Below, piece by piece: positions 11,266-43,793 of a stretch of 64,000 bases of DNA (positions are counted from its first letter, which is position 1; each line of letters opens with the position of its first letter). Both the position numbers and the translations under genes were made by a program. Under the pieces are notes generated by a model. That model saw nothing but the letters and a program-made list of their open reading frames with translations, was not told the DNA's origin and did no database searches. Source of the DNA: Natronolimnobius sp. AArcel1 (GTDB taxonomy: Archaea > Halobacteriota > Halobacteria > Halobacteriales > Natrialbaceae); the NCBI RefSeq assembly GCF_011043775.1, contig NZ_JAAKXY010000003.1, positions 744,001-808,000 on the forward strand. The letters run 5' to 3'.

Positions 11266-12678
11266 ATGAGTACCCAGGAGGAGTCGGGAGCCGCGCCGGC
11301 AGCCGACACCCACTCGCCAGACGCCGTCGTCGTCGGTGCCGGGACCGCAGGCTGTTACGCGGCCGCGACTATCGCACGCGCGGACTACGAGGTCGTCATC
11401 GTAGAACGCAAATCCGAGGACGAAGCGGGCCACATCGCCTGCGGTGACGCACTGAAAGGGGCCTCGGCGTTTCCCGAGGCGATTCCCCGTGAACAGATCG
11501 AACCCGCCTTCACCAACACCGGCGTCGACCACGGCCGGTTCGAAATCCCACAGGAAGATACCGTCCTCGAGATTCCCGTCCCCGGCGAACTGGCAGTCAT
11601 CGACCGCTGGGAGTACGGCAAGCGAATCATCGAAGGCGCACAAGACGCGGGCGCAGAAATCCACTACAATACCGTCGTCCAAGACGTCACACAAGCCGAC
11701 GACAACAAGGGAACGGTGACGGGCGTCGAGGCGACACAGAACGGCGACCCCCAGACCTACGAGGCCGAGGTCGTCATCGACGCTGCCGGTTCGCTGTCGG
11801 TCCTACAGGACAAGGTCGACTTCTCGAACTCCACGTTCGATACGAACGTCGACTACTCGCACTTCTGTTCGGCCTACCGCGAAATCGTCACCGTCGAAGA
11901 GCCCGTTCCGTGGGACGACGCCCTCGTGTTCAAGCCGACCGAGCGCGCGGCGGGCTACCTCTGGTACTTCCCGCGCACCGACACCGAGATCAACGCCGGG
12001 CTTGGCTTCCAGATGACCGAAGAGCCCATGCAACTCGTCGACGACCTCAAACGCGACCTCGAGGCCCGACCGGAGTTCGAGAACGCCGAGGTCGACGACA
12101 AACTCGGTGCCGCACTCCCCACCCGACGACCCTACGATTCGGCGGTCCACCCGGGCTACGTCGCAATCGGCGACGCTGCGGGTCACGTCAACCCAACCAC
12201 GGGCGGCGGAATCGCAGGCGCAGCCTACGCCGGTAAGTACGCCGCTGAGGCCATCGTCGAGGGTATCGAGGACGGCGACCTAAGCGAAAAGGCCCTCTGG
12301 GAGTACAACGAGCGCGTCATGGACCACTTCGGCGCACGCTACGCTGCACTGGACGTCTACAACATCCTCTCGACAGCCATCGACGTGGATGACCTCATGA
12401 GCCTGCTTGCGGTCATGCCCGGCGAAAAACTCGCTGAAGCACTCTACTCCGGGAGTACGAGTATCGGCCCGAAACTTGCCCTCGAGAGCCTCTACAAGAG
12501 CTACGGCCACTGGGGTACCATCCTGAATCTCTATCAGACCAAACGCCGCGCTGACGACCTGCTCGAGCTGTATGAGGCGTATCCCGACCATCCGGCCGCA
12601 CTCGAGCATTGGCAAGAGCGCCGCGACGACCTGATGGACGCGGTCTACGAGACGACTGGGGCCGAGCCGAAATACTAA
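11266..12678 (+). CDS. Geranylgeranyl reductase family protein
   Basis: A 470-residue FAD-dependent oxidoreductase that likely saturates isoprenoid chains of archaeal lipids (digeranylgeranylglycerophospholipid reductase type) or related prenyl groups. The N-terminal Rossmann fold is VVVGAGTAGCYAAATIARADYEVVIVER, with GWYFP-like LWYFPRTD in the middle and the FAD-contact GDAAGHVNPTTGGGI near residue 305. ATG 11266 is preceded by TATA-like cataaaacg near 11232. Which membrane lipid or quinone is its substrate cannot be told from sequence. Confidence 0.85.
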   Translation: MSTQEESGAAPAADTHSPDAVVVGAGTAGCYAAATIARADYEVVIVERKSEDEAGHIACGDALKGASAFPEAIPREQIEPAFTNTGVDHGRFEIPQEDTVLEIPVPGELAVIDRWEYGKRIIEGAQDAGAEIHYNTVVQDVTQADDNKGTVTGVEATQNGDPQTYEAEVVIDAAGSLSVLQDKVDFSNSTFDTNVDYSHFCSAYREIVTVEEPVPWDDALVFKPTERAAGYLWYFPRTDTEINAGLGFQMTEEPMQLVDDLKRDLEARPEFENAEVDDKLGAALPTRRPYDSAVHPGYVAIGDAAGHVNPTTGGGIAGAAYAGKYAAEAIVEGIEDGDLSEKALWEYNERVMDHFGARYAALDVYNILSTAIDVDDLMSLLAVMPGEKLAEALYSGSTSIGPKLALESLYKSYGHWGTILNLYQTKRRADDLLELYEAYPDHPAALEHWQERRDDLMDAVYETTGAEPKY

Positions 12679-12702
12679 GGAATGAACTTTTTCTCTGTCG
12701 TT

Positions 12703-12946
12703 CGAGAGAGTTCCGCTCTCTCGTGACTGAGCGAATCGAAGATTCGCGATGTCCGCGAAACCCAAGGTTTCGCTTGATGACGAGACGCCTTTGGCGTCTC
12801 GAACCACGTGCGGTCGCTTCGCGACCGCACTCGGAAAAATCTTCAAAAGAGCGCGTCGCGCTCTTTTGGACTGGGCGATTCCTTCGGAATCGCTTGCAGT
12901 CGGGCGGCGCTGCCGCCCGACGACCTCGCGGGATCTTCGATCCCGC
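12703..12946. repeat. Ordered array of nine short perfect hairpins
   Basis: Nine consecutive inverted repeats, all with perfect 7-11 bp stems: 12703-12723, 12731-12747, 12755-12773, 12781-12801, 12808-12830, 12844-12868, 12875-12893, 12899-12921 and 12928-12946. Eight have a 3-nt loop (GAA, CAA, TTT, TTC, GTC, TTC, GCT, TTC); the first has a 5-nt loop. Spacers are 7, 7, 7, 6, 13, 6, 5 and 6 nt. The stem sequences are unrelated to each other, so this is not a simple tandem repeat or CRISPR. It begins 25 nt after the end of the reductase gene and has no gene on it. Function unknown. Confidence 0.9.
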
Positions 12947-13144
12947 TTAGCTTCGATGAAAAGCACTCCTCCCTCCGTTCACTCGTCCTATCGTCCTCGT
13001 TCACATCGGTCGTCGGCCCGCTCGCTCCCGTCGGTCGCTCGCGGTCGGTAACTGGGTTATCACCTGCCCTTCCCCGTTGAGCGGACTTCTCACGGTGTTC
13101 GAAGCCCGCTCCCGGCCACTGTATTTTGTCACGCAATGCGATTA
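12947..13144. other. Gene-free intergenic stretch between hairpin array and htpX remnant
   Basis: About 200 nt with CG-rich, degenerate near-palindromic wording of the cgctcgctcccgtcggtcgctcgc kind (shown here in part only) and no start, RBS or recognisable product on either strand. I see no RNA gene in it. Confidence 0.5.
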
Positions 13145-13403: not shown

Positions 13404-14864
13404 ATGGTTCCAAAACAGACCAGGCGTGGTGCGCTATCGATTGTGGGTGCAACGGGTGTAACACTAGTTGCGGGCTGTCTTGGCGGTGCCGACGACGAGG
13501 AGAGTGCTGGAAACGGGAACGGGAATGGAAACGGAGCAGACGACGACCACACTGACGATACTGCAGATGACGAGGATGACTACGACGAGATGGACGACAC
13601 TGGCTCCGTCCGCGTCGCCCATCTCTCACCAGACGCGCCGAACGTCGACGTCTGGGTTGACGGCGAACCCGCTCTCGAGGATGTGCCCTTCCGTGCAGTG
13701 AGTGAGTACCTCGAGTTGCCGGTCGGCACGGCAGAGGTCATGATCACCGCTGCAGGCGATGAGGATACTGTCGTCTTCGACGACGAACTCGAGATCGGTG
13801 ACGGCGACTACACGGTCGCCGCACTGGGTGAACTCGCCGAGGAGAACGAGCCATTCGCGCCGGCCGTGCTCGAGGACGACCTAAGCGATCCTGGCGATCA
13901 GGCCCGCATTCGTGCAGTGCACGCATCACCTGACGCGCCCGCCGTCGACATCACGGCTGGAGACGGTGAGGTCGTCCTCTTCGAGGATGTCGCCTTCGGC
14001 GAGGCCGGCGCAGCGTACGTTGACCCCGGTGACTACACCCTCGAGATTCGGCCCGCCACTGATGACAACGACGGCGATGTGGTTGCGACATTCGACGTCA
14101 GCCCTGAGGCAGGTAACGTCTACTCCGCGTTCGCCGTTGGGTATCTCGAGCCAGATGCGGCACCAGCAGATGAGGCGTTCGACCTCGAGGTCGTGCTTGA
14201 CGCTGAAGGCGAGACAGCAGCGGCTGGCTCCGTCCGCGTCGCACATCTTTCACCAGACGCGCCAAACGTCGACGTCTGGGTCGACGGCGATGCAGTCCTC
14301 GAGGACGTGCCCTACCGAGCCGTGAGCGACTACCTCGAGTTGCCGGTTGGCACAGCAGAAGTGATGATCACCGCTGCAGGCGATGAGGATACTGTCGTCT
14401 TCGATGAGGAACTCGAGATCGGTGACGGCGACTACACAATCGCTGCACTGGGCGAACTCGCCGAGGAGAACGAGCCATTTGAACCGGCTGTTCTCGAGGA
14501 TGACCTCAGTGATCCTGGTGATCAGGCCCGCATTCGTGCAGTCCACGCCGCACCTGACGCGCCCGCGGTCGACATTACGGCTGCTGACGGCGAGGTCGTC
14601 CTCTTCGAGGATGTCGCCTTCGGCGAGGCTGGCCCAGCGTACGTCGACCCCGGCGACTACACCCTCGAGATCCGTCCCGCCACTGATGACAACGACGGCG
14701 ATGTGGTTGCGACGTTTGACGTGAGTCCGGGCGCTGGCAATGTCTACTCCGCGTTCGCGGTTGGCTACCTCGAGCCAGACGCCGCACCCGCTGACAAACC
14801 GTTCGATCTCGAGATCGTGCCCGACGCCGAATCGGAGATGGACGACGACTCGAGCGACTACTGA
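13404..14864 (+). CDS. Lipoprotein with duplicated DUF4397 modules
   Basis: A 486-residue secreted lipoprotein. The N-terminus has a twin-arginine-like TRRGALSIVG and a lipobox VAGC (Cys about residue 25), then a Gly/Asn and Asp-rich linker. Residues 67-274 and 275-482 are two nearly identical 208-residue copies. Each copy holds two DUF4397-like beta modules beginning SVRVAHLSPDAPNVDVWVDG and ARIRAVHASPDAPAVDITAG. DUF4397 domains are surface beta-sandwich modules of unknown ligand. A T-rich tract after the gene may terminate it. The high DNA identity of the copies implies recent duplication or ongoing conversion. Confidence 0.85.
   Translation: MVPKQTRRGALSIVGATGVTLVAGCLGGADDEESAGNGNGNGNGADDDHTDDTADDEDDYDEMDDTGSVRVAHLSPDAPNVDVWVDGEPALEDVPFRAVSEYLELPVGTAEVMITAAGDEDTVVFDDELEIGDGDYTVAALGELAEENEPFAPAVLEDDLSDPGDQARIRAVHASPDAPAVDITAGDGEVVLFEDVAFGEAGAAYVDPGDYTLEIRPATDDNDGDVVATFDVSPEAGNVYSAFAVGYLEPDAAPADEAFDLEVVLDAEGETAAAGSVRVAHLSPDAPNVDVWVDGDAVLEDVPYRAVSDYLELPVGTAEVMITAAGDEDTVVFDEELEIGDGDYTIAALGELAEENEPFEPAVLEDDLSDPGDQARIRAVHAAPDAPAVDITAADGEVVLFEDVAFGEAGPAYVDPGDYTLEIRPATDDNDGDVVATFDVSPGAGNVYSAFAVGYLEPDAAPADKPFDLEIVPDAESEMDDDSSDY
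13602..14849 (+). repeat. Two 624-bp tandem repeats within the DUF4397 gene
   Basis: Unit 1 starts at 13602 and unit 2 at 14226, with a 208-codon period. Long stretches (for example around the GTAEVMITAAGDEDTVVFD region) are near-identical at DNA level. In-frame contraction or expansion would give proteins with one or more units. Confidence 0.85.
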
Positions 14865-42435: not shown

Positions 42436-43716
42436 ATGGCGAAACAGGTTGTCACCCGCACTTATACTGCTTCCATCAGGAACCAGTCACGGGTGCAAGA
42501 CGACCTTGACGCCCTCGGGTTTGCCGCCTCGAAACTCTGGAACGTCGGACGGTGGACGTGCAGCCGGGTCTGGGATGAGGGCGATCATATTCCAAACCAC
42601 AACGAACTCACCACCTACCTGAAGTCGCACGAACGCTACGATGATCTACATTCTCAGTCAAGTCAGCGAGTCCTTCAAGAACTCGCTGAGGCGTTCAACG
42701 GCTGGTACGGCAAACGACTCAACGGAGACAAGAGAGCGAACCCACCCGGCTACCGTAAACACGGCGACGACCACCCACGAAGCACGGTGACGTTCAAAGC
42801 CGCTGGCTTTAAACTTGACACTAAATACAACCGCGTTCGACTCTCCCAAGGTTCAAACCTCAAGGACTACTGGTCGGACTTCATCCTCTGTAAGTACCAG
42901 ACGCAGCCCGATGTTGACCTCTCCGCCGTGGAGAACGTCCAGCAACTGCGGGCCGTCTGGACTGGCGAGGAGTGGGAACTACACTTCGTATGCAAAGTCG
43001 AGATCAAGGCGGCCGAATCTCCCGGCGAGAAGACCGTCGGTGTTGATCTCGGGATCAGCAACTTCGCCGCGCTCGCCTACGAGGACGGCCACGCCGAGCT
43101 GTATCCGCTCAACTGTCTGAAGCAGGACGACTACTACTTCAGCAAGCGACTCGCTCAGTGTGATGACTCGAACTCCGAACAAGCCACGCGGTTGAACCAC
43201 AAGAAATCGGAGCGTCGCACACACTACTTCCATACGCTCTCGAAACATATCGTCCAGCGATGTGTCGAGGAGTGTGTTGGAACGATTGTGGTTGGTGACC
43301 TCTCCGGCGTCCGCGAGGACGATAAGACCGAAGAGTCGCAGAACTGGGGCAAGCACGGCAACCTAGATCTGCACTCGTGGGCGTTCGACCGCTTCACAGA
43401 CTTGCTCACCTACAAAGCCGAGATGGAGGGCATCTCGGTTGAGCAGGTGTCCGAACGCGATACATCGAAGTCGTGTTCGTGCTGTGGTCGCACGCGGAAG
43501 CCAAACCGCGTCGAGCGCGGGTTGTACGTGTGCGATGAGTGCGGAACGACGGCAAACGCGGACGTGAATGGTGCCGAGAACATTCGACAGAAAGTATCTC
43601 CGAGTCTTGCCTGTGATGGGGGAGATAGGAGTAACGGCTGGTTGGCACAGCCATCGACGTTCCTGTTTGACAAGGAAACTGGCGCATTCGCGCCTCAAGA
43701 ACAGGTCACGTCGTAA
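42436..43716 (+). CDS. tnpB: TnpB RNA-guided nuclease homolog
   Basis: A 426-residue TnpB. RuvC-I is GVDLGISN with D204. The RuvC-II position reads TIVVGDLSGV, with Gly at residue 287 where the canonical Glu of ...VEDL stands. The zinc finger is C347, C350, C366 and C369, and RuvC-III is NADVNGAENI with D376. Active homologs use a guide RNA from their own 3' end to cut donor sites. The ATG at 42436 begins the family-typical MAKQVVTRTY; upstream in-frame sequence lies in the left end. Confidence 0.9.
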   Translation: MAKQVVTRTYTASIRNQSRVQDDLDALGFAASKLWNVGRWTCSRVWDEGDHIPNHNELTTYLKSHERYDDLHSQSSQRVLQELAEAFNGWYGKRLNGDKRANPPGYRKHGDDHPRSTVTFKAAGFKLDTKYNRVRLSQGSNLKDYWSDFILCKYQTQPDVDLSAVENVQQLRAVWTGEEWELHFVCKVEIKAAESPGEKTVGVDLGISNFAALAYEDGHAELYPLNCLKQDDYYFSKRLAQCDDSNSEQATRLNHKKSERRTHYFHTLSKHIVQRCVEECVGTIVVGDLSGVREDDKTEESQNWGKHGNLDLHSWAFDRFTDLLTYKAEMEGISVEQVSERDTSKSCSCCGRTRKPNRVERGLYVCDECGTTANADVNGAENIRQKVSPSLACDGGDRSNGWLAQPSTFLFDKETGAFAPQEQVTS

Positions 43717-43793
43717 ACCACAATATCCCAACCCTGCGGCGCGGTGCCGTGGGAATCCTCGCCCTTCAGGGCAAGGAGGATGTCAAGTGCGAT
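43640..43793 (+). ncRNA. Putative omega RNA (guide scaffold) at the 3' end of tnpB
   Basis: By analogy with characterised TnpB systems, the transcript of the tnpB 3' end and right end should form the guide scaffold, closing with the hairpin at 43756-43777 and GGATGTCAA. The guide would then read the flanking DNA from about 43786 onward. The boundaries are inferred and no promoter is identified. Confidence 0.4.

Follow-up and report, generated by a model that had tools for sequence, protein, structure and literature searches.

A geranylgeranyl-reductase-like gene in the window, the whole 64,000-nucleotide stretch of DNA that was analysed, ends in a TAA stop codon at 12676-12678, and directly in its 3′ UTR lies a dense array of short hairpins at 12703-12946 on the forward strand. 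Nine perfect stems were re-found there, with lengths of 8, 7, 8, 9, 10, 11, 8, 10 and 8 bp and spacers of 7, 7, 7, 6, 13, 6, 5 and 6 nt; the loop is 3 nt long in eight of the nine and 5 nt in the first, and it reads TTC in three, all as an earlier sequence-only reading had described. That reading proposed composition-matched random sequence as the check on chance, and the arrays are not a product of chance: besides this cluster of nine, clusters of 5, 4 and 3 hairpins occur in an 800-kb sample of the same genome, while fifteen 800-kb simulations (12 Mb in total) under an order-3 Markov model built from that genome gave no cluster of at least three, only pairs (n = 35). DNA folding of 12699-12950 is 10.9 sd stabler than that of dinucleotide shuffles and recovers all nine hairpins. 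Farther downstream, an open reading frame at 13404-14864 encodes 486 amino acids in two near-identical halves (GSVRVAHLSPDAPNVDVWVDG...) behind a lipoprotein-like N-terminus.

Components of the composite locus

Although first read as one array, the nine hairpins belong to three units lying side by side, all on the forward strand. The receiving unit is a 3′-UTR element that starts just after the stop codon with its 5′ part (12679-12698; GGAATGAACTTTTTCTCTG(T)), followed by a resident hairpin (12808-12830; GTGCGGTCGC(TTC)GCGACCGCAC) and by TCGGAAAAA (12831-12839), which sequence comparison marks as the 3′ partner of the T-run at 12688-12693, the two covarying between copies as TTTTGC/GCAAAA, TTTTTC/GGAAAA and TTTTAC/GTAAAA. 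The last hairpin closes at 12946 as first described, but the repeat family continues beyond it in an unpaired stretch, the tail, which reaches about 13080 (12951-13080; CTTCGATGAAAAGCACTCCTCC...GTCGTCGGCCCGCTCGC...), a sequence common to many 3′ UTRs. This receiving element is itself a haloarchaea-wide repeat with a variable resident hairpin (also at L053, L054, L069, L124 and others) that matched nothing in Rfam. The arrangement of stop codon, 5-9 nt, T-run and CTCTGC recurs at about 40 of 53 base elements from many genomes, counting those whose T-run lies at most 60 nt, and mostly 5-9 nt, past the stop of an upstream sense reading frame, and the repeat may itself be a 3′-UTR or termination element. 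Further hairpin modules occupy other fixed points of the tail, after AAAAGCAC or AAAACAC (L055, L131, L132, L112, L144), suggesting more module families than the two described here.

The first insert, A4, is a 109-bp module of four hairpins at 12699-12807 (12698-12806 if TCGTT..AACCA, flanked by G and C, is taken as the module), laid out as CGTT-hp1-TGACTGA-hp2-GATGTCC-hp3-TTGATGA-hp4-AACCAC. Its hairpins are CGAGAGAG(TTCCG)CTCTCTCG (12703-12723), GCGAATC(GAA)GATTCGC (12731-12747), GCGAAACC(CAA)GGTTTCGC (12755-12773) and CGAGACGCC(TTT)GGCGTCTCG (12781-12801). The second, B4, is a 111-bp module at 12840-12950, likewise of four hairpins, laid out as TCTT-hp-GACTGG-hp-TTGCA-hp-GACCTC-hp-TTAG. These are CAAAAGAGCGC(GTC)GCGCTCTTTTG (12844-12868), GCGATTCC(TTC)GGAATCGC (12875-12893), GTCGGGCGGC(GCT)GCCGCCCGAC (12899-12921) and GCGGGATC(TTC)GATCCCGC (12928-12946); in the paralogue L003 the last two carry the inverted loops AGC and GAA on the same stems.

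Comparison with a sister species (G001) separates the three units. Aligned with the window, G001 shows the gene and the region downstream of it with the middle hairpin only, so that A4 and B4 appear as two clean insertions of 109 and 111 bp with unbroken flanks and no target duplication. The difference runs in the reverse direction at a second locus, where inserts of two hairpins each, A2 (60 bp) and B2 (58 bp), are found in G001 and missing from the window's genome, and at a third one species has A2 and the other B2. There is good support for modules that either move or can be removed precisely, the presence/absence pattern fitting insertion and precise excision alike. The claim that simple duplication could not make the array is thereby wrong in effect, two four-hairpin modules having been copied beside an older hairpin. 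With differences between the sister species at several loci, it should be possible to observe gain and loss, and the mechanism is testable.

Copies, hosts and covariation

The notion of a unique array of unrelated hairpins was abandoned once homologues were found in the same genome and its relatives. Searching the window's own genome with the array region returned further copies (best 84-89% identity) with the stems in the same order, the same linkers, and loops changed or inverted; across this genome and its relatives, 51 of 61 genomes gave matches. A covariance model of A4 matched 203 of 243 Halobacteriales genomes at an E-value of 0.001, a figure that rests on rough E-values and takes in generic four-hairpin elements. 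In a phylum-wide draw at 1e-5, 17 genomes were positive, 16 of them Halobacteriales, and the family is confined to this order apart from the remaining one, a weak match. Hosts include Natrialba, Natrinema, Natronosalvus, Natrarchaeobius, Haloterrigena and Natronorubrum; a genome-wide pattern scan produced many chance matches in bacteria, those confirmed as modules being from Natrialbaceae, and annotated phage records held no module match.

The 28 A4 copies align unambiguously as TCGTT, hairpin, TGACTGA, hairpin, GATGTCC, hairpin, TTGATGA, hairpin, AACCA, at lengths of 104-115 bp, with ends that form inverted terminal repeats (T[C/G]GTTCGA...TCGAAC[C/G]A). Mean pairwise difference is 0.04 in the linkers, 0.21 in the stems and 0.62 in the loops, and 98.1% of stem cells are paired; changes on both sides number 110, where shuffles give 38.6, and in slid controls pairing drops to 20-49%. 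The 13 B4 homologues behave alike (98.7% paired, 22 two-sided changes against 6.0 in shuffles), and in some copies the second hairpin has been swapped wholesale, GCGATTCC giving way to CGAGGGACC together with its matching arm GGTCCCTCG. Since hairpins from the same family are not independent of one another, these counts, like the loop counts below, overstate the number of events. Within the array the stems are indeed unrelated to one another, as first noted, while each is common to the homologous position in other copies; the remark that the element conserves shape and not sequence proved right at the level of the family, where both sides of a stem change together.

Replication slippage had been suggested from the sequence; by such local slippage, or by template switching, each hairpin would have been built in place, and the perfect arms, two-sided changes and inverted loops do fit arm-to-arm copying. 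Homologous modules with the same linkers, order and stems nevertheless stand at many unlinked loci in many genera, and their presence or absence is exact to 109 and 111 bp. As the origin of the array slippage is refuted, its probability being next to nothing; as a process that maintains the stems it may play a part.

DNA or RNA as the folded form

A structured RNA in the 3′ UTR (a terminator, stabiliser or small RNA) offers another explanation for the upkeep of the hairpins, the inserts then serving as expansion arms. The receiving element lies in the sense direction and begins 5-9 nt past stop codons, there is covariation between its flanking T-run and A-run, and the RNA fold is 7.5 sd stabler than shuffles. 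The arms of A4 nevertheless change together almost without one-sided intermediates, G-T pairs (8) being barely commoner than A-C mismatches (6), which argues against wobble of the RNA type, as an RNA structure would have tolerated G-U. The same module also occurs in both orientations and in transposon-end palindromes away from 3′ UTRs, and an Rfam search gave no match at the array. The loops, too, are balanced between strands for GNA and TNC (GAA 62, TTC 65), so neither strand is preferred. The structured RNA tail proposed earlier is accordingly unsupported, and an RNA explanation is unlikely. A C/D-box-like RNA, considered for the TGATGA and CTGA of the linkers, was dropped in view of their position between the hairpins and the lack of an Rfam match at the array.

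The loops carry a signature of their own. A C-G pair closes 261 of 268 array hairpins, and C(GNA)G or its complement is found in 174 of the 268 (65%) as against 10 of 123 isolated hairpins (8%) in 800 kb; the Fisher p of 4e-28 is nominal, array hairpins not being phylogenetically independent. As a general rule, C(GNA)G triloops give ultra-stable DNA hairpins. Those of the d(GCGAAGC) type are unusually stable DNA mini-hairpins. A mini-hairpin has been used to stabilise aptamers (PMC4686876). From the loop, wobble and covariation evidence together we infer that selection or copying probably acts at the level of the DNA hairpin rather than of RNA.

Insertion sites, related elements and a proposed origin

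Many A4 copies sit inside the palindrome GAGTGCCTCGGGG...CTTGACCCCGAGGCGGTTCAC, and removal of TCGTT...AACCA from these predicts an empty form, the hairpin GCCTCGGGGCTTGACCCCGAGGC, that is, GCCTCGGGG^CTTGACCCCGAGGC. A search of 121 genomes that allowed any 2-24 nt between the palindrome arms matched in about 70 places in 47 genomes, of which about 60 are the predicted empty hairpin and a few have the loop inverted to TCAAG; the reversed-pattern control gave no matches. Because the predicted empty hairpin is found, the A4 site is G^C, with nothing lost or duplicated. The same G and C border A4 in other contexts, CTG^CG in the 3′-UTR element and ACGG^CTTCGCCGT. A rule that all insertions lie at hairpin tips was dropped, since over all flank contexts a rejoined-junction hairpin was present in 7 of 52 by a crude count, against 8.5% at random positions; it survives only for two contexts, the IS605/PATE palindrome and the hairpin ACGG^CTTCGCCGT. 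Modules also enter one another: in L308, L309, L320 and L322 the second hairpin of A4 is interrupted by a B2-like module, and in L148 a B4 hairpin is interrupted by another module. An analogy with integron attC sites, drawn from the GTT/AAC ends, was set aside because the crossover position does not fit.

The A4 relatives L151, L158, L187 and L196 lie inside palindromes of IS605/PATE type, an identity resting on the form of the palindrome and on PMC3119063 rather than on an adjacent transposase. This location, together with the absence of target duplication and the presence of subterminal hairpins, would suit non-autonomous, PATE-like IS200/IS605 elements moved by a Y1 TnpA. PATEs have palindromes near their ends, no target duplication and no inverted terminal repeats (PMC3119063), whereas A4 has such repeats and lies inside the palindrome, which is the host hairpin of many of its copies; its left flank consists of G alone and not of a fixed tetra- or pentanucleotide. 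Among A4-rich genomes, moreover, an intact Y1 gene (PF01797) is missing from G036 and G022, which have none, and from G028, where there is no more than a fragment; G032, by contrast, carries two Y1 genes but no A4. A Y1 transposase looks unnecessary for A4, and it is improbable that the modules are IS200/IS605 elements moved by one. REP, BIME and REPIN sequences are likewise extragenic palindromes in pairs or clusters, and A4 is roughly mirror-symmetric about its centre; REPs have one shared stem sequence and a GTAG/CGTC tag (PMC3733652) and a RAYT/Y1 partner, in contrast to the differing stems of A4, its lack of a tag and its apparent independence of a Y1 transposase.

The closest described elements are the SMR-A repeats of Haloquadratum walsbyi (HqIRS42, HqIRS43, HqIRS55), which are about 110 bp long with inverted ends, cause no duplication, carry no transposase, insert in near-terminal palindromes of PATE/IS605 elements, share no sequence similarity between their three families and are mobilised in a manner called enigmatic (Dyall-Smith et al. 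2011, PMC3119063). At 109 bp in the window, with prominent inverted terminal repeats, no transposase gene and no target duplication between empty and filled sites, A4 may be called SMR-A-like, a likeness drawn by description. The assertion that no element of this form had been described was therefore nearly right: size and behaviour had been, whereas the hairpin-array anatomy, the two-hairpin and nested forms, the covariation and the C(GNA)G loops are not reported for SMR-A (PMC3119063), and the window copy lies in a 3′-UTR element rather than an IS605 palindrome. Short hairpins and nesting also recur in the palindromic repeats of Volvox organelles, which are intergenic, have 3-5 nt loops, nest in one another and are thought selfish (PMC2670323), and in the double-hairpin elements of Allomyces mtDNA, regarded as mobile (PMC7218506). 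These belong to unrelated organisms and sequences, and the modules here differ in their four hairpins, conserved linkers and precise G^C site.

The locus is probably a composite, in which a dispersed 3′-UTR element with a resident hairpin has received two non-autonomous mobile modules, strings of hairpins whose folded DNA would be the unit copied or selected. A4 and B4 would have inserted on either side of the resident hairpin in the 3′-UTR element of the reductase-like gene, each bringing four short, perfect hairpins with conserved linkers between them and encoding no transposase. The hairpin array may extrude where the DNA is single-stranded or supercoiled, and some activity may then use the folded DNA as substrate or target and copy the module into G^C sites, which are often palindromic. 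Perfect stems would persist either through rewriting of one arm from the other or through the immobility of copies that cannot fold, and loops would be free to change or flip. No mobilising enzyme for the modules was found, nor, in 2.5 Mb searched, a larger autonomous element with the same ends and an internal gene within 5 kb.

A wider proposal, which we advance tentatively and with rather more doubt than conviction, is that these modules represent a class of haloarchaeal mobile DNA whose conserved trait is a single-stranded DNA fold, strings of perfect hairpins with C(GNA)G triloops. Lacking a dedicated transposase, they might be moved by a host activity into G^C within or beside hairpins, their own included, and arrays might grow by such nesting. 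For small mobile repeats whose movement has counted as enigmatic since 2011, the analysis supplies an anatomy, the exact site of insertion and a loop signature specific to DNA; it shows them to be spread across haloarchaea, and they may provide a natural case of selection for the shape of a DNA, not an RNA, hairpin.

Two minor observations complete the survey. Fused A4 elements of 204 bp occur at L254 (2062-2266), L179 (3192-3396) and L313 (1500-1704), each apparently the outcome of recombination between two A4 copies in a hairpin that they share. Elsewhere in the window, at 43592-43777, a match to Rfam sot0042 (sense overlapping transcript) covers the 3′ end of an apparent TnpB-type coding region.
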